Source: Bacteroidales bacterium (lineage in GTDB: Bacteria > Bacteroidota > Bacteroidia > Bacteroidales > UBA932). From it: a stretch of DNA of 49,041 nucleotides. Shown one piece after another: positions 27,360 through 37,531 of the stretch. The notes below the pieces were generated by a model. That model worked only from the letters and a program-made list of their open reading frames with translations, did not search any database and was not told where the DNA came from. The translations under genes and the position numbers were made by a program. The stretch lies in contig JAFTCB010000012.1 of assembly GCA_017454905.1 (NCBI GenBank), positions 1-49,041 on the forward strand. The letters run 5' to 3'. Each line of letters starts with the position of its first letter. Position 1 is the stretch's first letter.

Positions 27360-27367
27360 CAAAGATA
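27360..27367 (-). promoter_or_regulatory. -7 promoter box of the prfB operon
   Basis: TATCTTTG ending 6 nt before the prfB ATG (27353): leaderless arrangement. No clear -33 TTTG. Confidence 0.65.
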
Positions 27368-27403: not shown

Positions 27404-27431
27404 AACGTCCGCAGCGAGCGCTGCGGACGTT
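27404..27431 (-). terminator. Terminator of the murI operon
   Basis: Twelve-bp perfect stem AACGTCCGCAGC/GCTGCGGACGTT with a 4-nt loop, 13 nt after the murI stop, followed on the minus strand by a T-rich stretch (TGCTTTCTTGTT). Outer bases GCAAA/TTTGC extend the pairing. Confidence 0.8.
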
Positions 27432-27444
27432 GTTTGCCGGCGGC

Positions 27445-28200
27445 TTATCCGATCGCGGCGGCCAGGGCGCGGAGTGTCGCGGGGTCTCCGGAAGACAGCA
27501 GCTCGAGGCTTCCGCCTCCGTTGTCCGGATGATCTTCCGCCCGGCAGGAACCCAGGACCTTGAGCACCTGCCGGGCAACGGCGGGCGCCGGGTCGATGAC
27601 CTGCACGTCCGGACCGGCGATACGCTCGATGACGGGACGCAGGAAGGGGTAATGGGTACAGCCCAGGACAATGGTGTCGGCCCCGGCGTCCAGCAGGGGC
27701 TGCAGGCTGGCGCGTACGGTGCGCTCCACCTCCGGACCGTCCAGTTCCAGCCGCTCGACCAGCTGGACGAATCCTTCTCCCACATGCTCCTCGATGCGGA
27801 CATCGCCCTGGTAGATGCCCTTTGTCTTCAGATACTTCGAGGCTTTCAGCGTCCCGGCGGTGGCCAGTACGCCGATGACGCCGCTGCGGGTGCCGAGCGC
27901 GGCGGGCTTGACCGCCGGCTCCATCCCGACGAAGGGGACGCTGAACTCTTCCCGCAGGGTTGCGATCGCTGCGCCCGTGGCCGTGTTGCAGGCCACGACG
28001 ATCACCTCGGCGCCCTTTTCCAGCAGCAGGCGCGTGATGACACGCGCCCGGTCCCGGATATAGGCCTCGCTCTTCTCCCCGTAGGGACAGTGTGCGTTGT
28101 CTGAGTAGTAGATGTAACGTGCGGAAGGGAGGACCTTCCGTATTTCTTTCAATACTGAAAGTCCTCCCGACCCTGAATCGAAAATTCCGATGACTGCCAC
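27445..28200 (-). CDS. murI: Glutamate racemase
   Basis: A 251-residue enzyme making D-glutamate for the peptidoglycan stem peptide. DSGSGG (8-13), VACNTA with C71 and LGCTHYPFL with C181 give both catalytic cysteines. It is the last gene of the seven-gene operon and starts 2 nt after the DUF6515 stop; its presence supports a cell-wall role for the operon. Confidence 0.95.
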   Translation of the reverse strand: MAVIGIFDSGSGGLSVLKEIRKVLPSARYIYYSDNAHCPYGEKSEAYIRDRARVITRLLLEKGAEVIVVACNTATGAAIATLREEFSVPFVGMEPAVKPAALGTRSGVIGVLATAGTLKASKYLKTKGIYQGDVRIEEHVGEGFVQLVERLELDGPEVERTVRASLQPLLDAGADTIVLGCTHYPFLRPVIERIAGPDVQVIDPAPAVARQVLKVLGSCRAEDHPDNGGGSLELLSSGDPATLRALAAAIG

Positions 28201-28202
28201 CG

Positions 28203-29657
28203 CTAGAGGGTATTGTACTGGTTGTACTTCTCGGCGAGTGCGCCGGTCAGCTGGCCCAGGACCTCGAAGTACGGGGTGCCGTCGATGATGGTCAGCTTGT
28301 ACACGGTGTCGTCCACCTTGTAGTACTCTTCCCCATCCAGGATGATCGTTTCGTAGTCGTCAGGCAGTTCCTGGACCAGGGCTCCCGCAGGCGGGACGAT
28401 GGTCACGTACTTGCCTTCGCTGTCCTTGATGAAGAACACGCCGTCATCGTAGAAGTACTCTACGCCTGCATCGGCGTAGCTCTGCACCAGGCCCAGCCGG
28501 TCGGCCTGCTTGTAAGACCTGGCCGCGCGCTCGGTATTGAGCGCGATGTCAGCGTTCTGGCGGGCGATCGTGGCGTTGTTGGCCGCGATGGTCGCGTTCT
28601 GGCTGGCGATGGTCTGCGCGTTCTCGTTGATCGTGCGGTACGTATTGTACACGTCGTAATAGTAGGCGAAGCGGCAGGTGGTGTACACCAGGTTGTCCAG
28701 TACCGGGTCGAAGTAGACGCCGAACGGGGGACGGCTGATGTAGTAGTGGCCGCCGTAGTAGCGGTAGTAGATACCGTCGAGGACGTAGTAGGGGACACCC
28801 CAGTAGACGTGGCGGACGTAGCGTTCCGGCAGGTAGGAGACGCGGTATCCGAAGTAGTGGTGTCCGCCGTCCCAGAAGCGGACCGGCCGGTCGAACGGCA
28901 TCGGGTCGCGACGGCGGGGCGGGATCCGCTCCATGTTGTGGCCCGGGCCGGGGTGCATCTGCACATGGCTGGGACCGCGGCCGCCTTCGAAGTTGCGCGG
29001 AGCGCCTTCACGATGGCGGACGGTGCTGGGAGCGTTGGGATTGACGCTCATGCCGGGCTGCCGCTGGTTGCGGTTGATGCTCGCGCCGGAATTCTGGCGG
29101 CTCTGCTGCCGGACGACCGTGCCGGAGGAAGAAGAGCTGCCGCCGCCGCTGCTGCGGACATTGCTGCCGCTGCGCGCCGGCTGGCCGGCGGAAGAGCGCG
29201 CCTGCGTGCCGGAAGTGGTTCTGCTGCCATCTGTCGGGATGCGCTGCTGCGTTACCGTGCCGCGGCTGATGGTGCCGCTGCCGGAGTTGCTGCCGTAGCT
29301 CGGCGTGCTCTGGCGGGTGGTCGAAGAGCTGCTGCGGGTATTGCTGCCGCTGCGGCTGACCTGGCCGCCGGTGCTGCCGGACGGACGGCTGCTGCTATAG
29401 GAGGAGGAAGAAGAAGGGCTACTGCTGCTACGCGGGGTAGAGCTGAGTCCTTTGGTATTTCCGGCGGAGCCGGATCCTCGCATCTGGGAGGAGGGGGCTG
29501 ACATCGAAGAGGAAGGACGGCTGCCGCCGCTGCGGGAGTTGCCGCCGCCCGATCCACCGCGGGAATTGCTACCGCCCCTGGTCTGGGCGTCCAGAGGGAC
29601 CGCGATCATAGCCGCTGCGGCTATGGCGATCAGGGAGAGTGTGGTCAAGCGTTTCAT
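28203..29657 (-). CDS. Exported DUF6515-like protein with Ser-rich low-complexity region
   Basis: A 484-residue protein: signal peptide (ends about PLDAQ), about 190 residues very rich in Ser, Gly, Arg and Thr, a Tyr/Gly/His/Pro-rich stretch with YYGGHYYISRPP, four back-to-back heptads of the form NATIAxQ (likely a short coiled coil), and a C-terminal DUF6515-like domain (YVTIVPPAGALVQELPDDYE then EEYYKVDDTVYK). Function unknown; DUF6515 proteins are exported in Bacteroidota. It lies between NamZ (12-nt gap) and murI (2-nt gap) in one operon. Confidence 0.75.
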   Translation of the reverse strand: MKRLTTLSLIAIAAAAMIAVPLDAQTRGGSNSRGGSGGGNSRSGGSRPSSSMSAPSSQMRGSGSAGNTKGLSSTPRSSSSPSSSSSYSSSRPSGSTGGQVSRSGSNTRSSSSTTRQSTPSYGSNSGSGTISRGTVTQQRIPTDGSRTTSGTQARSSAGQPARSGSNVRSSGGGSSSSSGTVVRQQSRQNSGASINRNQRQPGMSVNPNAPSTVRHREGAPRNFEGGRGPSHVQMHPGPGHNMERIPPRRRDPMPFDRPVRFWDGGHHYFGYRVSYLPERYVRHVYWGVPYYVLDGIYYRYYGGHYYISRPPFGVYFDPVLDNLVYTTCRFAYYYDVYNTYRTINENAQTIASQNATIAANNATIARQNADIALNTERAARSYKQADRLGLVQSYADAGVEYFYDDGVFFIKDSEGKYVTIVPPAGALVQELPDDYETIILDGEEYYKVDDTVYKLTIIDGTPYFEVLGQLTGALAEKYNQYNTL

Positions 29658-29669
29658 AATTGTGTGATT

Positions 29670-30914
29670 TTAGTAAATGTAGTATTTCTTGGACAGGGCT
29701 TTGAAGGCCGGGACGTCTGCGGACCAGTAGTCTGCGATGTCGGAGACTTTCATCGTCTGTCCGAACTTCTTACTGACAAAATCAGTGCCGCAAACTTTGT
29801 TGAACATCGAAATCCGGTCGGAACCTGCTGAAATGGGGTTCTTTTTGTACAGTTCCCAGACCGCCTGCATGACGTAGAACTGCGTCAGGGTGATGGTCGC
29901 GGCATCATAATCCGTGTAATAATATTGTACGCCGTGGATCAGTTTTCCGGCCAGCCGGCCGGAAATCGGCTGGTAGTGGATGGTGCGCCAGGCCACGCCG
30001 GGCACGTGATAGCTGTCCAGTTTCTCCTTGAGTTTGTCGGCGTCCACCCACTCTTCCGCAAAGGTGGCGAAAGGCAGCGTGTAGCCGATGCCGATGTTGA
30101 GGTAGTTGTACATCTCTCCGCAGAGTCCGGCTGAGGGATAGAGGATGGCCGTTTCGGCATAGGGAATGTTGGGCGAAGGGAGCACCCAGGGCAGTCCCGT
30201 GTCGTTGAAGAGCATGTCCCGCTTCCATCCCTCCATCGGGACGACCAGGAGCTTGCACCGGGCCGGGGCGGCCTTGCCGTTCTGTCCGCAGTTGAGCCCT
30301 TCTTCGTTGATCAGGCGGGCGAGCTCTCCCACCGTCAGGCCGTACACATAGGGGATCTTGTACTGGCTGACGAAGGAATGGTAGCCGTCCCGGACGAGCG
30401 GGCCTTCAACCTTCAGGCCGCCGAGCGGATTGGGGCGGTCCAGGACCATGACCGGGATGCCCACTTCGGCGCAGGTGCGCATCACCAGGCCGAGCGTGGA
30501 GATGAAGGTGTAGGAGCGGCTGCCCACGTCCTGGATATCGTAGACCATGATGTCAATGCCGCGCAGCATCTCCGCGGTCGGCTGCCGCGTGCTCCCGAAC
30601 AAGGAATGCACCGGCAAGCCGGTGTGCTCGTCCTTGCCGGATTCGACCTTGCCGCCGGCATAGACGTCTCCGCGTACGCCGTGTTCGGGGGCGAACAGGG
30701 CGACCAGCTTGACATTTTCAGCCTCGAAGAGGATATCGATGGTCGAATTGAGCTGGCTGTCCACCCCGGAAGGGTTGGTGACCAGGCCGACCCGTTTGCC
30801 TTCCAGGCCGGCGAAATGACGGTCCCGGAGGACCTCGATGCCCGGCTTCACCCGGGCGGAGCCTGCCGTGAGGCTCAGGAGGAACAGCGCTGCCGCGCAA
30901 AGAAAGTGACGCAT
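29670..30914 (-). CDS. namZ: Exo-beta-N-acetylmuramidase NamZ (DUF1343, GH171)
   Basis: A 414-residue exported enzyme (signal peptide MRHFLCAAALFLLSLTAGSA). DUF1343 marks are GKRVGLVTNPSGVD, FAPEHGVRGD (E77 in the catalytic PEHG motif), DIQDVGSRSYTF, LDRPNPLGG and SPNIPYAETAILYPS. NamZ proteins release terminal MurNAc from peptide-free glycan ends. It overlaps the end of the AmpG-like permease gene by 40 nt. The longer frame open to 31229 reads through the permease and is rejected. Confidence 0.92.
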   Translation of the reverse strand: MRHFLCAAALFLLSLTAGSARVKPGIEVLRDRHFAGLEGKRVGLVTNPSGVDSQLNSTIDILFEAENVKLVALFAPEHGVRGDVYAGGKVESGKDEHTGLPVHSLFGSTRQPTAEMLRGIDIMVYDIQDVGSRSYTFISTLGLVMRTCAEVGIPVMVLDRPNPLGGLKVEGPLVRDGYHSFVSQYKIPYVYGLTVGELARLINEEGLNCGQNGKAAPARCKLLVVPMEGWKRDMLFNDTGLPWVLPSPNIPYAETAILYPSAGLCGEMYNYLNIGIGYTLPFATFAEEWVDADKLKEKLDSYHVPGVAWRTIHYQPISGRLAGKLIHGVQYYYTDYDAATITLTQFYVMQAVWELYKKNPISAGSDRISMFNKVCGTDFVSKKFGQTMKVSDIADYWSADVPAFKALSKKYYIY

Positions 30915-32179
30915 ACCGTTGCCAGACAACATACCATGACAATTATAAAGAAACCGACATAACCGAGGGCCTCCTGCATCCATCCGGCGAAGAGGCCCGG
31001 AAGCATCATCGAGAGGGCCATGAAGGCCGTGCAGATGGCGTAGTGGGAGGTTTTGAATTCCCCTTCGGAGAATTGCATCATATAGAGCATATAGGCCGTG
31101 AAGCCGAATCCGTAGCCGAACTGGTCCAGGGCTACGCACAGATAGATGATCCACAGTTGCGAAGGCTGTACCAGGGCCATGTAGAGATAGACCGCGCAGG
31201 GGAGGGCGAGCGCCATGGACATGGGCCACATGGACTTCTTCAGGCCCTGCCGGGCTGCAAACAGCCCGCCCAGGATGCCGCCCACGGTCAGGGCGATCAC
31301 GCCGACGGTGCCGTAGACGAGTCCGGATTGGGCCGTGGTGAGCCCCAGGCCGCCCTGGTCCGCCGGATCCAGCAGGAAGGGCGTCAGCATCTTGACGGAA
31401 AATGCCTCCGGCAGCCGGTAGAGCAGCATGAACACGATGGCGAGCCAGACGCCGGGTTTCTGGAAGAAGGTTTTCCAGGCGCGGCCGAATTCCCGGAAAA
31501 TCCGGCCGGCCCCGCCGGGGGTCCCGGCAGAGGGACGGGAGAATTGCTCCGGGCCGCGCCCGTCATTTGCCGGCTCCGCCGGCGAATCTCCTTCTACCTT
31601 CGGCAGGAAGCGCCAGTGCCACAGGGTGACCAGCGCGAACAGGGCGGCGCAGATCAGCAGGGTCATGCTCCACGCATGCGGGATGTTGCCGGAACGCTCC
31701 TCCAGCAGGCCGGCCAGCACGACGATGACGCCCTGTCCGAAGACCGAGGCGATGCGGTAAAAGGTGCTGCGGATGCCGACGAACACGGACTGGCGTTTCT
31801 GGTCCAGGGCCAGCATGTAGAAGCCGTCCGCCGCGATATCGTGCGTGGCGGAAGCGAAGGCGATGATGTAGAAAATCACGAGGGTCAGGCCGAAAGCGTC
31901 CGGACTGACGCTGAGGGCGAGTGCGGCAAAACCGGCGGTGCAGATCAGCTGCATCAGCAGGATCCACCAGCGCTTCGTGCGGATCACATCCACGAAGGGG
32001 CTCCAGAGGGGCTTGATCACCCAGGGGAGATAGAGCAGGGAGGTGTACATCGCCAGATCGCCGTTGGACATGCCCAGGCGTTTGAACATCGTCACGGAAA
32101 TCACGTTGACGATGAAATAGGGGATGCCTTCGGCAAAATAGAGTGTAGGCACCCAGAACCAGGGGGATTTATTCAACAT
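30875..32179 (-). CDS. ampG: AmpG-like MFS permease (probable muropeptide importer)
   Basis: A 434-residue membrane protein with about 12 helices. The start MLNKSPWFWVPTLYFAEGIP and the segments LYLPWVIKPLWSPFVD and ATHDIAADGFYML are typical of the AmpG group, which imports GlcNAc-anhydroMurNAc peptides. A Pro/Gly-rich hydrophilic loop (about 215-245) separates the two halves. The start at 32179 is chosen because it matches the family N-terminus; an ATG at 32221 adds 14 hydrophilic residues and a longer overlap. It overlaps the upstream SpoIID fusion gene by 11 nt and NamZ by 40 nt. Confidence 0.87.
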   Translation of the reverse strand: MLNKSPWFWVPTLYFAEGIPYFIVNVISVTMFKRLGMSNGDLAMYTSLLYLPWVIKPLWSPFVDVIRTKRWWILLMQLICTAGFAALALSVSPDAFGLTLVIFYIIAFASATHDIAADGFYMLALDQKRQSVFVGIRSTFYRIASVFGQGVIVVLAGLLEERSGNIPHAWSMTLLICAALFALVTLWHWRFLPKVEGDSPAEPANDGRGPEQFSRPSAGTPGGAGRIFREFGRAWKTFFQKPGVWLAIVFMLLYRLPEAFSVKMLTPFLLDPADQGGLGLTTAQSGLVYGTVGVIALTVGGILGGLFAARQGLKKSMWPMSMALALPCAVYLYMALVQPSQLWIIYLCVALDQFGYGFGFTAYMLYMMQFSEGEFKTSHYAICTAFMALSMMLPGLFAGWMQEALGYVGFFIIVMVCCLATVCVTFFARQRCSS

Positions 32180-34235
32180 TTGCACCGGGATAGTAGTGTT
32201 GGAGGATTTGACGGTAATCATAGCCGCGGGCAGCCATGACGGCGGCTCCGATCTGGCAGAGGCCGACGCCGTGGCCCCATCCGCGTCCTTTCAGGACAAA
32301 GGCTCCGCCCGGGTCCCGCTCTACCGAGAAAGCGGAACTCTTGAGGTGGGAAGGGCTCAGGGCGCGCCGGATCTTGAGTTCTTTGCCGATTACTTCCGTG
32401 CGCAGGCTGCCCTGGATACGCAGGTATTTGATGCGCCCGGAAGGGCCGCGCTCGATGGGCTCCAGAGCCTGGATCTCGCCGAAATCGATGCCCGTGCGCT
32501 CGCGGACCAGGGCGGAGAGCTCCTCCGCACCGTAACGGACGGTCCAGTCGTGGAAGTCCTTGGTCTGCTGGTCGTAATCATTGAGGACCTGGGAAAGGAT
32601 CCCGTCGTTCTCGCAGTCGCAGAACGGGTCTTCGACACTTTGCAGATAGGGATAATCGATGTCCTCCCAGCAGGTGCTGAACAGTTCCGTCCGGCCGCCG
32701 CAGCATTTGGCATAGCGGGTGTCGCAGAGTTCCCCGCGATAGCGGAGTACCTGCCCCCAGGTCTCGTCGATGACGGCGCGGACGTTTTCTCCGACGGCCA
32801 TCGTGAGGCCCTGGTAGCGCTGGCAGTGATCATCGGCGCAGACGTCGAAACGGTCATGTGCCGAGTGGTCTGTCATGCGGGCGAGGAGCCAGCTGCGCGA
32901 GATGACGGCGTGGGCCTTGAGCAGGTCGGGGGATGCACTGGATTTCATTTCTGAGGAAATGACGCTCAGCAGGTAGTCTTCCATGCCGACGAGATTGACC
33001 GCCCGGATCTTGTCGCCTTCCACGATGAACTTCAGGCCGCCGGCGAACTTCAGCGTCCGTTTCTGCTCCCAGTGGAAGTCGATCCCGATCACAACGTCAT
33101 AGAGCACGAAGGACGGTTCGGCGAACAGGGTGGAACGGGTGATGGAGTCGAAATACAATTCGTCATACAGGGCGCCGTTGTAGGCGATCCGTCCGTCGCT
33201 CCAGCGGACCCGCTGGGGGCCGGCGCCGTCCGAGATGATCTCGAAGCAGATCTCCTCCGCGGCCAGGATGCCCACGGACACGCGCGGCTGCGTGCGGGTC
33301 AGCCGCCATTCGATCATGTCCTGCTCATGCTGGGGGATGGTCACTTCGTTCAGGATCTCCTCCAGACGGCTTCCGGTGACGTGTTCCAGGTCTTCGTGGT
33401 AGGGCGTGACGAACACGCCGGCCATGTCCGCGGCGCCCGGACTGATCGTGAGATGGTCGCTCTCCGATGAATCGTAGTGATGGGAACGCTTGCTGGAGCG
33501 CATCACGACGAACAGCCGCAGTTCGGCGCCTTTGATATAAGCATAGAGGTTGAATTTCGGCTCGGTCTCGCCTTCGTGCCGGTCCGTGCAGTCCAGCAGG
33601 CGGTAGAACAGCTTGGTCAGTGATTTGGAGGTGGTCGCCTTGAGGGCGAAGACTCCGCGGGAGAACCCGGGATAGCGGTACAGGGTGGCATCCTTGACGG
33701 ACGCGAGGGCTTCGCCGGGTGCATCCAGGAACGCATCCACGGCTTCTTCGAGTGGAAGCTGGTGGCGCGGCACCGCCTGGAAATGCAGGTGGTCCGGTGC
33801 GGAGGCGCCGCTGGCGGGGCCGTTGTAGAAGACCGTATAACCGGGATATTTGACGGCAAAATCCAGCATGTCAGGCAGATGGTGCCAGATGGCCTGCGGC
33901 AGGTGCTCTTCCCGGACGATGACCAGGTGGTCCCGGAAAATGGGATAGGGATTGACCTGGATATTGTACATCCGGCCCTTGCGCCCTTCGAACTTGAGGT
34001 GGAACTGCTCGGGCGGCCGGTTTTCCGCGCAGAGGAAGCAGGGCCTGGCGGCGATGGCTTCCGGGGAAGTGTCCGCAGTGGTGGATATGATCCTTTCGGG
34101 GTTATACTGCACGCGGCAGGGCAGGCCGAATACGGCCAGTTCCTTGACCTCTACGCTTTTGAGCGAGCGGAAGTTGGCGGCCGCCAGGGGCCAGACAGAC
34201 AGTTGGTCTTTGATGAATTTTCGGATCTCTTGCAT
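32169..34235 (-). CDS. DUF4922 (HIT/GalT-like) - SpoIID/LytB fusion protein
   Basis: A 688-residue protein with no signal peptide or transmembrane helix, so apparently cytoplasmic. Residues about 1-310 form a DUF4922 region related to GalT/Ap4A-type phosphorylases: CFLC (66-69, possible zinc site), NPYPIFRDHLVIV (95-107) and D-H-L-H-F-Q (148-153), the HxHxQ nucleotidyl-transfer motif. Residues about 315-688 form a SpoIID domain: MEDYLLSVISSEMK with the catalytic Glu E429, LLKAHAVISRSWLL and the C-terminal GRGWGHGVGLCQIGA. SpoIID enzymes are lytic transglycosylases on peptide-free glycan. The TAATG overlap with the NUDIX gene and the 11-nt overlap with ampG show operon coupling. The joint reaction is unknown. 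Confidence 0.82.
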   Translation of the reverse strand: MQEIRKFIKDQLSVWPLAAANFRSLKSVEVKELAVFGLPCRVQYNPERIISTTADTSPEAIAARPCFLCAENRPPEQFHLKFEGRKGRMYNIQVNPYPIFRDHLVIVREEHLPQAIWHHLPDMLDFAVKYPGYTVFYNGPASGASAPDHLHFQAVPRHQLPLEEAVDAFLDAPGEALASVKDATLYRYPGFSRGVFALKATTSKSLTKLFYRLLDCTDRHEGETEPKFNLYAYIKGAELRLFVVMRSSKRSHHYDSSESDHLTISPGAADMAGVFVTPYHEDLEHVTGSRLEEILNEVTIPQHEQDMIEWRLTRTQPRVSVGILAAEEICFEIISDGAGPQRVRWSDGRIAYNGALYDELYFDSITRSTLFAEPSFVLYDVVIGIDFHWEQKRTLKFAGGLKFIVEGDKIRAVNLVGMEDYLLSVISSEMKSSASPDLLKAHAVISRSWLLARMTDHSAHDRFDVCADDHCQRYQGLTMAVGENVRAVIDETWGQVLRYRGELCDTRYAKCCGGRTELFSTCWEDIDYPYLQSVEDPFCDCENDGILSQVLNDYDQQTKDFHDWTVRYGAEELSALVRERTGIDFGEIQALEPIERGPSGRIKYLRIQGSLRTEVIGKELKIRRALSPSHLKSSAFSVERDPGGAFVLKGRGWGHGVGLCQIGAAVMAARGYDYRQILQHYYPGANVE

Positions 34236-34807
34236 TACAGGAGGGCTGACAGGGCATCTTTGATGCGGAGGTACTCTTCTTCGAAATTGGGCGTCAGGAT
34301 GCCCTGGCCGAGGGTGCGCGTGATCTCTTCCGGGGTCCAGAAGCGGCCGCCCGCAAGCTCTTCGGGATCCGGACGGATCTCATATTCGCCCACGGCGGCG
34401 AACACGCTGACCAGTTCGCGCTCGCTTGCGGACTCGAACACGTAGTTGCAGAGTCCCTGGGGCAGGAAATTGTGCAGGCCCAGTTCTTCGGCGGATTCCC
34501 GGTAAAGGGCTTCCAGGATGTATTCACCATAGGCGACGTGCCCGCCGACGGCCGTGTCCCAGCGCAGCGGGAGCAGTTCCTTGTGCGGGCCGCGCTGCTG
34601 GAGGTAGATCTGGCCGCAGCGGTTGATGATGTGCAGGTGGACGACGGGGTGCAGGGGCTTCTCGGGACTGTGATGACAGAAATCCCGGGAAGCCTGGGCC
34701 TTGACGTTGCCGTATTCATCCACGACCGGCAGCATCTCTACGGCCCGGGTACGCTTGTCTCCCCGCAGGAGCGGCGCGGGGGATGCGGGATAAATCAGTT
34801 CCAACAA
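34235..34807 (-). CDS. NUDIX hydrolase
   Basis: A 190-residue protein with a complete Nudix box from G89 to G110 (GHVAYGE, x7, RESAEELG), fixing the metal-binding Glu residues. The flanks resemble the YfcD/isopentenyl-diphosphate isomerase-like branch (RDFCHHSPEKPLHPVVHLHI). It hydrolyses a nucleoside diphosphate-X compound that cannot be named. It begins 4 nt after the HU-like gene and overlaps the DUF4922-SpoIID gene by 1 nt; the neighbouring phosphorylase-like domain makes a nucleotide-sugar substrate possible (inference). Confidence 0.88.
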   Translation of the reverse strand: MLELIYPASPAPLLRGDKRTRAVEMLPVVDEYGNVKAQASRDFCHHSPEKPLHPVVHLHIINRCGQIYLQQRGPHKELLPLRWDTAVGGHVAYGEYILEALYRESAEELGLHNFLPQGLCNYVFESASERELVSVFAAVGEYEIRPDPEELAGGRFWTPEEITRTLGQGILTPNFEEEYLRIKDALSALL

Positions 34808-34811
34808 GGCG

Positions 34812-35744
34812 TCAATAGTTTAAGATGCGTAATTCCTCGGGGGTATAGAGGATGGAATCGATGAAGTCCGGGGACACCCGGGCCAGGATGAGGAATACGG
34901 CCAGGGCGAGGACGGCCAGGATGACCAGGGTAAGCAGCAGGGCGGCCCACCAGGGCATTCCTTTCTTCTTCCGGACTTCTGCCGCTGCCGTGTCTGTCGT
35001 TGGGATTTCCGGCTCTGCCGGGGTGTCCTCGGCTTCCGGTTCCGCAGCGGGCTCTTCAGCGGCGGGTTCTTCGGAAACGGGCGCTTCCGCGACAGGTTCT
35101 TCCGCGGCTGGTTCTTCGGCGGCTGGTTCTTCGGCGGCGGGTTCTTCCGGTATTCCGGGTTCTGTCGGAGGTGCTTCGACTATGGGTTCTTCTGCCGGTA
35201 CTTCCGGTTCTTCCGCCGGCTCCTCGGAAGCGGCTGCTTCCGGTTCCGCCGCCGGCGCGGGCTCCGGCGCTTCCGCAAGGAGGGGGAGCGGGACCTTGAT
35301 GACCACTGGGTCGTCCTGGATCAGGTGGCTCTTGAGGGATACGGGACGCAGGCCGATGCCGGCCGGGAAGATGTCGAGACCTTCGTCCGGGACGAAAAAC
35401 AAGGTGTTTTCCCGGGTGGCGCGGAGACGCCCGAGCCCCGGCAGGGTGACGGTCTTGCGCTCTTCGAGCACAGAGCGGAGTTCTGCCAGATATTGTGTAA
35501 TATAGATCCTGGCCGCCTCCCGGTCGATCAGGTTGGACGCAGCGTAGAAGTCTATCAGCAGGGAGTCCTCCTGGATGCCGGGGTAGAAAGAAAGCCGGCG
35601 ATAGGGCGGGTTGATGGTAAAACCCTTATCAGAAAAAGATGCCGGGACCATCTCGGCAACGAAAGTGCCGACTCCCGGCAGGCCTACCTGGTCATGCGCG
35701 ATGACCAATTCGCCCACCATCCGTGACAGAAGTTCAAGATCCAT
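34812..35744 (-). CDS. CCDC81-type bacterial HU-domain protein with Glu/Pro/Ala repeats and C-terminal membrane anchor
   Basis: A 310-residue protein. Residues 1-130 hold two HU-like modules of the CCDC81 bacterial type (LPGVGTFVAEMVPASFSDKG; RKTVTLPGLGRLRATRE). Residues about 160-255 are low complexity with EEPAA-type repeats, then comes a transmembrane helix (about 265-287, MPWWAALLLTLVILAVL) and a short tail. Relatives commonly end in a SPOR peptidoglycan-binding domain, which is missing here. First gene of the seven-gene operon. The start at 35744 is set by the promoter 6 nt upstream; the frame open to 35849 crosses that promoter. Confidence 0.8.
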   Translation of the reverse strand: MDLELLSRMVGELVIAHDQVGLPGVGTFVAEMVPASFSDKGFTINPPYRRLSFYPGIQEDSLLIDFYAASNLIDREAARIYITQYLAELRSVLEERKTVTLPGLGRLRATRENTLFFVPDEGLDIFPAGIGLRPVSLKSHLIQDDPVVIKVPLPLLAEAPEPAPAAEPEAAASEEPAEEPEVPAEEPIVEAPPTEPGIPEEPAAEEPAAEEPAAEEPVAEAPVSEEPAAEEPAAEPEAEDTPAEPEIPTTDTAAAEVRKKKGMPWWAALLLTLVILAVLALAVFLILARVSPDFIDSILYTPEELRILNY

Positions 35745-35750
35745 AATACA

Positions 35751-35758
35751 CAAAGATA
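35751..35758 (-). promoter_or_regulatory. -7 promoter box of the seven-gene HU-murI operon
   Basis: TATCTTTG ending 6 nt before the ATG at 35744: leaderless arrangement. From here no good terminator is seen until 27404-27431, giving an mRNA of about 8.3 kb. Confidence 0.65.
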
Positions 35759-35810: not shown

Positions 35811-35818
35811 TAATTTTG
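35811..35818 (+). promoter_or_regulatory. -7 promoter box of the exported hypothetical gene
   Basis: TAATTTTG, 19 nt before the ATG at 35838, with TTG near the -33 position (35788-35790). It is followed by a run of nine A residues. Confidence 0.6.
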
Positions 35819-35837: not shown

Positions 35838-36392
35838 ATGAGCAAGCATTCCCTCTTGATTCTCTTGTCCGCCCTGTCCCTGGGCGCTTCCATCGTTTCC
35901 GCCGGCGCTCAGAACGCCGGTTCAGAAGCCGTCAAGGCCATCCGTGCCGCATACGCCGAAGCCAAGGAAAAGATCAAAATGACGACCGGTAACGAATCCG
36001 TCCCGCGCAACGACGTCACGGCCACCCTCCGCTACATGGTCCCTGCCACCGGGGAGCGGACCGAGGTCTTCCACGCATATTTTGACCTCGAGACGGATGA
36101 GGAAGGTGCTCATTATCTGCCTTATTTCATCACGCGCAAGTACAATGTCGCCGTCCGGAATGTCTATGAGGAGTACCTCTTCGATCCGGAGACGGGCCTG
36201 CTGCTCTTTGTCTTCATCCAGTCCGATAACTTGGAGGGCGGCAAGGACGAGGAGCGCTATTATTTCGATGCGATGGGCAAGATCGTGCACCGGATCGTCA
36301 AGGGTGAAGACTCCCTCGATGCCGACAGCCTGCTGATGGACGCGGCCCGGATTCGCGCCCTCATCCCGCAGTACCTGGATTTTAGCTACTAG
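35838..36392 (+). CDS. Exported hypothetical protein conserved in Bacteroidales
   Basis: A 184-residue protein with a signal peptide (ends about SAGAQ). The mature part starts with a charged helix (EAVKAIRAAYAEAKEKIKM), then alternating strands (TATLRYMVPATGERTEVFHA, ITRKYNVAVRNVYEEYLFDP, ERYYFDAMGKIVHRIVKGED). No catalytic motif and no domain I can name. It follows its own promoter, divergent from the HU-murI operon, and has no terminator I can see. Confidence 0.7.
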   Translation: MSKHSLLILLSALSLGASIVSAGAQNAGSEAVKAIRAAYAEAKEKIKMTTGNESVPRNDVTATLRYMVPATGERTEVFHAYFDLETDEEGAHYLPYFITRKYNVAVRNVYEEYLFDPETGLLLFVFIQSDNLEGGKDEERYYFDAMGKIVHRIVKGEDSLDADSLLMDAARIRALIPQYLDFSY

Positions 36393-36649: not shown

Positions 36650-37531
36650 ATGAAAAAGTCATTTCATATGGGACTGGCTGCGATGCTTCTGCTGGCGGCC
36701 TCTTGTACTTCTTCCAAGTCACCTATGAAACTGGACATCAGGGAGTATGCGGATTCTTCCGCCTATTCCTACTTCAATATGCATGTTGAAATGCCCGTCG
36801 CCAAAGGTACGGTGCCTTCCGCCATCCGCAATGTGCTCGTGGATGTGATGGACGAGGCGCTCAGTCACGTGTCGGACAATGAAGGACGGGAATTCGGGCG
36901 TTTCGAAGGGGACCCCGGAGATTCGGAAGCTCTTTTCTCCTATTATGAGGTCCAGGCGTCCACTGCCCTTGCGGAAGCATCCGACCGGGACTGCGGGGAC
37001 CGTATCCTGGGTATTTATGAGTCGAAGACGCTCTCTGATAGCGAGAAGGAGTTCTATGCAGCCAATATCAGCCGCTGGGCTTACGACTTTAATTTGAAAA
37101 AAGTGGAGGAGACGAAGGATTACATTGTTTTTGACTCCCAGAATTATGTCAGTTATGGCGGGGCACATGGCGGTATCATCGGCGCCGGTCCGATGACCTT
37201 CAGCAAGAAAGACGGACATCTCGTGCGCGAATTCTTCCGGCCGGACTGCACCAAAGACATGCAGAAACTCCTCCGGGAAGGACTCCAGGAGTATTTCCAG
37301 TTCAGGATGGATGCAGTCGGACTGGGGCTGGGTGCCTTCCTCTCACTTCCGGAAGACAGCCTGATCCCGCTGCCGGGATGGGCTCCCTATCCTGTTGCTG
37401 ACAGTCTGCATTTCGTGTATCAGCAATATGAGATTGCAGCGTATGCTGCCGGTATGCCGGAATTCTCCCTGCCTTACGACAAGGTCCGGAAATACCTGAC
37501 CGACGACGCCCGCAAGACGATTGGCCGGTGA
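36650..37531 (+). CDS. DUF3298 (RsiV-like) lipoprotein
   Basis: A 293-residue protein with a lipoprotein signal (LLLAASC). The second half carries the DUF3298 signature: YVSYGGAHGG, later FVYQQYEIAAYAAGMPEFSL and PYDKV. The same fold forms the outer domain of the anti-sigma factor RsiV, which binds lysozyme, and of PdaC-type deacetylases; here there is no cytoplasmic anti-sigma part. A role in sensing or binding glycan is possible but unproven. The start at 36650 is preferred to 36641. Confidence 0.82.
   Translation: MKKSFHMGLAAMLLLAASCTSSKSPMKLDIREYADSSAYSYFNMHVEMPVAKGTVPSAIRNVLVDVMDEALSHVSDNEGREFGRFEGDPGDSEALFSYYEVQASTALAEASDRDCGDRILGIYESKTLSDSEKEFYAANISRWAYDFNLKKVEETKDYIVFDSQNYVSYGGAHGGIIGAGPMTFSKKDGHLVREFFRPDCTKDMQKLLREGLQEYFQFRMDAVGLGLGAFLSLPEDSLIPLPGWAPYPVADSLHFVYQQYEIAAYAAGMPEFSLPYDKVRKYLTDDARKTIGR

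Follow-up and report, generated by a model that had tools for sequence, protein, structure and literature searches.

The stretch of DNA analysed here (the window) comprises 49,041 nucleotides of a Bacteroidales bacterium (contig JAFTCB010000012.1 of assembly GCA_017454905.1), and among its genes are seven neighbours encoding, along with an AmpG-like permease and the muramidase NamZ, a protein that joins a DUF4922 domain to a SpoIID domain (Table 1). The source genome (G000) amounts to 2.42 Mb in 62 contigs and is 82% complete; its closest relatives among genome contigs are metagenome-assembled genomes (MAGs) of Bacteroidales, with titles mostly naming rumen or gut and part of them Candidatus Cryptobacteroides. 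An earlier note on the window had described seven same-strand genes with tight gaps and named domains, and this description was upheld by open reading frame (ORF) calls and by Pfam and NCBIfam searches: all seven genes are called on the minus strand, with intergenic gaps of 4, -1, -11, -40, 12 and 2 nt in operon order. The start of AmpG is ambiguous, with ATG 32179 giving an 11-nt overlap with the preceding gene and ATG 32221 one of 53 nt.

The single promoter box in front and the single strong terminator behind that the note had named were borne out by box scan, terminator scan and folding. The terminator was the top site of the scan, which returned 12 terminator-like sites in the window vs. 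8.0 expected; the folding energy of the terminator stretch is -26.2 kcal/mol (z -5.7). Boxes of the type TANNTTTG, which we take to be the Bacteroidota -7 consensus, are enriched in the window (26 vs. 6.7 expected), and sigma-70 promoter sites stand at chance level there (3 vs. 2.3 expected). Within the operon we found no minus-strand TANNTTTG box besides that in Table 1; the neighbouring minus-strand boxes outside it lie upstream at 36802-36809 and, as TATCTTTG, at 27360-27367. Because this further TATCTTTG box stands directly before prfB, the last gene of the operon is probably murI. Judged by one strand, one promoter box and one strong terminator, the seven genes form one operon, with co-transcription predicted.

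Table 1. Genes and signals of the operon in the window, listed in the direction of reading
Feature	Position	Strand	Evidence and remarks
Promoter box TATCTTTG, Bacteroidota-type -7 (TANNTTTG)	35751-35758	-	TTG at 35781-35779; directly before first ATG
HU-CCDC81 protein, 310 aa	34812-35744	-	PF18174, PF18175; two HU-like domains, acidic Pro/Ala-rich linker
NUDIX hydrolase, YfcD/IPP-isomerase-like, 190 aa	34235-34807	-	PF00293 9e-13; nearest PDB 2fkb YfcD; Nudix box by eye
DUF4922-SpoIID fusion, 688 aa	32169-34235	-	PF16269 5e-53, PF08486 1e-22, TIGR02669 1e-53
AmpG-like muropeptide permease, major facilitator superfamily (MFS)	30875 to ~32179 (or 32221)	-	TIGR00901 2e-53, PF07690
NamZ exo-beta-N-acetylmuramidase, 414 aa	29670-30914	-	PF07075 3e-83, PF20732 2e-31
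DUF6515 protein, 484 aa	28203-29657	-	PF20125 5e-14; apparent signal peptide, Ser/Gly-rich
MurI glutamate racemase	27445-28200	-	TIGR00067 204 bits, above cut-off
Intrinsic terminator	27404-27431	-	12-pair GC-rich stem and T-rich tail

In the fusion protein, the N-terminal part is GalT/Ap4A-phosphorylase-like with an HLHFQ motif and the C-terminal part is a SpoIID domain of a type that we call cytosolic. The best match of AmpG is TIGR00901, at 182 bits and under the NCBI cut-off of 350. NamZ has both the NamZ_N and the NamZ_C domain and, by eye, an N-terminal signal peptide; a second, weaker NamZ-like match in the source genome (C22:751-1065, locus L002; 74 bits) is 28% identical to it. The HU-CCDC81 protein shows a single apparent membrane helix close to its C-terminus, again by eye, and no SPOR match in the Pfam domain search. 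Between the HU gene and a plus-strand gene at 35838, a TANNTTTG box at 35811-35818 stands divergent to the operon's own box.

Gene order and the core of the operon

Of the best 80 of 101 relatives we kept 79 loci, 63 of the fused lineage and 16 distant, and presence was counted only at loci with enough flank or with a match. In the fused lineage, the order recurs as evidenced by: 1) the 5' members, with NUDIX at 54/57 and HU at 48/52 loci; 2) permease and muramidase, with AmpG at 58/60 and NamZ at 58/58; 3) the 3' members, with DUF6515 at 39/49 and MurI at 47/48, the latter on the same strand at 36 and on the opposite strand at 11. This recurrence across 63 loci exceeds chance. At the distant loci, AmpG is kept at 12/15, once (L080) at no more than 28% identity and 3.9 kb away, NamZ appears at 1/14 on the opposite strand, and NUDIX and HU were found at 0/14. 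DUF4922 and SpoIID are separate neighbours at nine of the 16 distant loci and parts of triple fusions at two; DUF4922 was not seen at the other five, two of which (L070, L081) begin at the edge of a contig, unlike L076, L078 and L082.

Because of this presence and absence across fused-lineage and distant loci, we assign as core DUF4922, SpoIID and AmpG, plus NamZ in the lineage of the window; HU and NUDIX are lineage-specific, and DUF6515 and MurI are variable. The neighbourhood described in the earlier note is therefore kept outside the source genome as far as its core is concerned, with the accessory genes lost in distant loci, and the four genes that the note had counted in with the rest have to be set apart. 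As candidate core members, MurI and DUF6515 were rejected with MurI on the opposite strand in 11/47 and DUF6515 not found in 10/49 cases, and NUDIX was rejected on its absence from all 14 distant loci.

The two parts of the fusion protein

Separately encoded relatives of the SpoIID part begin directly at a conserved 'PxIxVGI' segment, and a signal-like N-terminus was found in 0/28 of them by hydrophobicity over the first 35 residues, a test other than SignalP. The 28 are separate genes, with L081 excluded for its cut-off start; a wider count that includes eight fused or overlapping frames gives 0/36. As positive controls, the same test flagged 63/64 NamZ proteins and 18/20 ordinary Bacteroidales SpoIIDs, the remaining two also being signal-peptide-like by eye; these 20 were chosen from weaker SpoIID matches, and five come from genomes that carry DUF4922. 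At the same threshold, 1/35 DUF4922 proteins were signal-like, as were 3/34 of GT2, a conserved protein of about 485 aa encoded in the DUF4922 region (e.g. L129:6480-7931, L112:8279-9748). Fusions of DUF4922 and SpoIID occur in the window, L129, L134 and L139, triple fusions of GT2, DUF4922 and SpoIID in L068, L069 and L133, and a GT2-DUF4922 fusion in L135; L118, with overlapping DUF4922 and SpoIID frames, was left out of this count. Because an export signal is absent from the relatives and the domain is fused to cytosolic-type domains, the SpoIID part in the window is probably intracellular, contrary to the trimming outside the cell that the earlier note had proposed for it. A SpoIID acting outside, where it would cut glycan strands before import by AmpG with DUF4922 as an unrelated passenger domain, would accord with the exported look of ordinary SpoIIDs and with the exported NamZ of the same operon, but we consider it highly improbable in view of the 0/28 result and of the fusions to DUF4922 and to GT2-DUF4922.

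The domain is homologous (E 7e-23) to that of SpoIID/LytB lytic transglycosylases (PDB 4rwr, 5i1t, 5txu), with the catalytic-type Glu and the Cys/His positions kept; unlike those enzymes, the type in the window is joined to domains of cytosolic type, has residues of its own subfamily and lacks an export signal. Numbered as in alignment A3, E117, C180, H184 and C185 are identical in 20/20 exported SpoIIDs, E117 being presumably catalytic and the Cys/His residues metal-binding, and the residues systematically changed in the cytosolic type are H130 (for Gln), S112 (for Gly) and M118. Shared catalytic-type positions with changed neighbours therefore suggest that the cytosolic type has the same core as exported SpoIIDs and probably another substrate.

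The DUF4922 part does not reach the cut-offs of known families in the window (Ap4A_phos_N 19.4 bits vs. 23.1; galT_2 25.7 vs. 650), and one relative, L008, is barely at the Pfam Ap4A_phos_N cut-off (23.2). A profile of 17 DUF4922 sequences matched yeast Ap4A phosphorylase 2 (Apa2, PDB 4i5t; E 2e-5), HLHFQ being placed on DHKHLQ, and entry 4i5v, in which this His position differs, scored lower. All 17 rows keep both motif His residues and a CxxC pair unchanged, and a CxxC pair is known from GalT; the superfamily of Ap4A phosphorylase and GalT also includes plant GDP-L-galactose phosphorylase. The region of the HxHxQ nucleotidyl-His motif is thus common to DUF4922 and to Apa2 and galT_2, whereas outside this region DUF4922 is little alike and, unlike them, it is tied to wall-sugar genes. 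We surmise that DUF4922 is a GalT/Ap4A-phosphorylase-like, unusual nucleotide-linked enzyme. The unusual nucleotide-linked step of the earlier note gains from this resemblance on the side of DUF4922 and loses NUDIX, which is outside the core. The step is probably intracellular and common to a defined set of proteins, its chemistry being putative.

Co-occurrence with SpoIID, GT2, AnmK and MurQ

Co-occurrence was followed in an order sample of 119 Bacteroidales genomes and a phylum sample of 247 genomes, with G000 and G053 common to both. In the order sample, DUF4922 is present in 30/119 genomes, and strong matches to the cytosolic-type SpoIID occur in the same 30 and in G086. The phylum sample has 36 genomes with the cytosolic SpoIID, 37 with strong DUF4922 and 36 with both, DUF4922 alone being found in G354 and SpoIID alone in none; this count leaves out three weak DUF4922 matches (G158, G267, G291). 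The two co-occur even on separate contigs (e.g. G002, G053, G095). DUF4922 and the cytosolic SpoIID therefore go together almost without exception in both samples, an association that is new here. It also bears on another explanation, in which DUF4922 is an Ap4A phosphorylase that acts with NUDIX in alarmone or nucleotide clean-up and is linked to wall genes by expression only. The closest solved relative and the NUDIX gene that precedes DUF4922 at 54/57 near loci are what this explanation would predict, but NUDIX is missing at all 14 distant loci, DUF4922 is fused to SpoIID, and shared expression needs no tracking of the two across separate contigs; we judge it improbable.

GT2, as a further new association, is present in 29 of the 30 DUF4922 carriers, G000 being the exception, and in no non-carrier (E 1e-40). 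Among 29 fetched DUF4922 regions, part of them shortened by contig ends, we found GT2 in 24, AmpG in 21, SpoIID in 20, a MurK-like gene in 12, NamZ in nine and MurQ in eight. Because GT2 was found neither in G000 nor in the flanks of any of the 63 fused-lineage loci, it is dispensable in the lineage of the window, and in loci near the window the NUDIX gene occupies its place. Some arrangements elsewhere differ: in L270 and L271, which belong to another class of the phylum, a glycosyltransferase gene comes after the cytosolic SpoIID (that of L271 is GT4-type by Pfam, that of L270 similar by eye), and in L115 and L116 a GNAT acetyltransferase (by Pfam in L115, by a similar start in L116) and then AmpG come after DUF4922, the SpoIID match being elsewhere in the genome, on a different contig.

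AnmK is present in 82/119 genomes of the order sample, in 4/30 DUF4922 carriers (G007, G034 in two pieces, G114 and G116) vs. 78/89 others. On an rpoB tree (112/119 genomes, single gene, FastTree, midpoint root; models fitted with three or four random starts), dependent evolution of AnmK and DUF4922 fits better than independent evolution (likelihood-ratio test statistic 16.9, 4 degrees of freedom, p 0.002), with possession of both as an unstable state of the model. The genomes outside the tree are five without an RpoB match and, with fragments, G042 and G075; the sequences of G062, G086 and G118 are partial. In the phylum sample the figures are 14/36 carriers vs. 156/211 others (p 6.5e-5 without tree correction). 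No AnmK match was found in G000 or in the near-complete family members G008 and G115.

MurQ, in contrast to AnmK, is positively linked to DUF4922, in 17/30 carriers vs. 8/89 others (tree-corrected p 1.6e-4). These 25 genomes were counted at a minimum of 166 bits, with fragments in G052 and G080 among them; uncounted are the non-carrier G118 (a 594-aa frame with 84.7 and 50.1 bits), the inclusion of which would give 9/89, and numerous matches at about 24-43 bits, the majority from frames some 620 aa long, which appear to be GlmS-like SIS domains. In G000, G008 and G115 MurQ was not found, with only partial matches of 28-33 bits in frames of 616-653 aa. The earlier note had pointed to the rest of the genome for MurQ, AmgK or MurU, and candidates for the latter two came to light there: contig C42 of G000 carries a MurU-like gene (NF045761, 1e-39; best PDB match 8hhd, a MurU) beside an AmgK-like gene (NF045759, 2e-13; sole PDB match 3csv, named aminoglycoside phosphotransferase), both under the NCBI cut-offs. 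The AmgK/MurU and the MurK/MurQ routes both require free N-acetylmuramic acid (MurNAc), and because of this an enzyme that opens anhydroMurNAc would be the missing activity, and the cytosolic SpoIID suggests itself as the candidate for it.

A proposed route for peptidoglycan sugars

For Tannerella forsythia, which we compared by its published operon only, we take YbbC to be NamZ. According to PMC5388701, the operon xanthan lyase-gtf-gtf-lytB-ampG-ybbC with murTKQ forms one transcript, and the operon (Tanf_08345-08385), in which two annotated glycosyltransferase genes precede lytB, is labelled glycosylation-related. Growth on GlcNAc-MurNAc and GlcNAc-anhydroMurNAc (GlcNAc, N-acetylglucosamine) depends on AmpG, AnmK is not predicted, and the processing of imported fragments is called open, as stated in PMC7670621; PMC5790795 covers MurK. 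The adjacent genes for SpoIID (lytB), AmpG and NamZ (ybbC), on one strand and in the same order, are shared with the window. In the window only, DUF4922 is fused to SpoIID, genes for HU, NUDIX, DUF6515 and MurI are added and an AmgK/MurU-like pair is found in the genome, whereas no gtf, murT, murK or murQ is among the seven operon proteins. In the locus of a Tannerella sp. MAG (L070), SpoIID is followed by AmpG. In 6/29 order-sample regions we saw a large Golvesin_C-domain protein (e.g. L112:17458-19899, where a weak Amidase_3 match accompanies it, and L118:1580-4570), which may correspond to the 'xanthan lyase' of T. forsythia. With AmpG, NamZ and SpoIID together and this precedent in PMC5388701 and PMC7670621, the reading of the earlier note as wall-sugar salvage proves right in outline.

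The same material allows a biosynthetic or regulatory module, in which GT2 and DUF4922 would provide a nucleotide sugar or recycle it, and SpoIID would edit a glycan intermediate, for instance in surface glycosylation, partly from salvaged sugars, with AmpG as a neighbour that shares the input. GT2 in 29/30 carriers, the GT4 gene after SpoIID in L271 with its similar counterpart in L270, and the two glycosyltransferases before lytB in an operon called glycosylation-related (PMC5388701) are in keeping with it. We nevertheless hold it to be rather unlikely, given that AmpG, MurK-like and MurQ genes occur in 21, 12 and eight of the 29 regions, that the tree-corrected association is negative with AnmK and positive with MurQ, and that the lineage of the window retains SpoIID, AmpG and NamZ but not GT2.

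We surmise, as a somewhat probable account drawn from the genes present, that the operon serves peptidoglycan-sugar salvage and is built on a cytosolic module. Exported NamZ, judging from its family, would trim MurNAc off peptide-free glycan in the periplasm, and AmpG, by analogy with that of T. forsythia, would import GlcNAc-anhydroMurNAc and GlcNAc-MurNAc. In the cytosol the DUF4922-SpoIID fusion would process the imported sugar, its presumed substrate. As the likeliest step we tentatively propose that the SpoIID part, by way of its conserved catalytic-type Glu, may reverse the chemistry of a lytic transglycosylase or act as a hydrolase; this would open the 1,6-anhydro ring, release MurNAc or do both, and AnmK would be unneeded. 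MurNAc would then pass to AmgK/MurU in G000 and, where relatives possess these enzymes, to MurK/MurQ; DUF4922, along with GT2 in relatives, may act on this material in a step linked to nucleotides or nucleotide sugars; HU, NUDIX, DUF6515 and MurI would be lineage-specific or variable passengers or helpers. A bolder version, which we think unlikely, is a kinase-free route in which a lytic transglycosylase relocated to the cytosol would open the 1,6-anhydro ring of the sugar imported by AmpG, phosphate being a possible acceptor, and the fused DUF4922 would convert the product to a nucleotide sugar for direct entry into UDP-MurNAc or UDP-GlcNAc (UDP, uridine diphosphate) without AnmK. E. coli-type recycling has the same AmpG-imported input and the same need to handle anhydroMurNAc, but its AnmK was found neither in G000 nor in 26 of the 30 Bacteroidales carriers.

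Several points weigh against the salvage route as proposed: 1) SpoIID enzymes are, to our knowledge, lytic transglycosylases on denuded glycan and not ring openers; 2) AnmK is kept alongside the module in 4/30 Bacteroidales and 14/36 phylum-sample carriers, Bacteroides ihuae, a named control, is positive for both DUF4922 and AnmK, and AnmK was also not found in 11/89 non-carriers; 3) the carriers lie mostly in one big clade, with about four AnmK losses among them by eye; 4) NamZ is present in merely 9/29 order-sample regions, and GT2 is missing from the 82% complete genome of the window and from the flanks of all 63 fused-lineage loci; 5) two Parabacteroides loci (L076, L082) have neither DUF4922 nor AmpG beside SpoIID, and L270 and L271 have no visible AmpG in a short flank, with GT4 after SpoIID in L271; 6) the main product of T. 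forsythia extract is GlcNAc-MurNAc rather than its anhydro counterpart, and anhydroMurNAc by itself is a poor substrate used independently of AmpG (PMC7670621). Because phylum-sample carriers and Bacteroides ihuae hold both, the exclusion of AnmK by the module is a tendency and not absolute, and it is weaker outside Bacteroidales.

A literature search, with most subscription journals outside its coverage, returned no account of a DUF4922-SpoIID module by title or start of abstract, and showed DUF4922 in two papers, both on plants to judge by their titles. The SpoIID-DUF4922 protein may stand in for AnmK, which most Bacteroidales carriers of the pair lack, and a SpoIID gene in such genomes need not signify an extracellular wall hydrolase. 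For the processing step that PMC7670621 calls open in T. forsythia, the cytosolic SpoIID, DUF4922 and GT2 provide a concrete set of candidates. If the kinase-free version were true, such a route for anhydroMurNAc would be widespread in Bacteroidota. Should the proposed role of the candidate set be right, many members of this phylum would recycle their wall by chemistry that is new to the literature examined.

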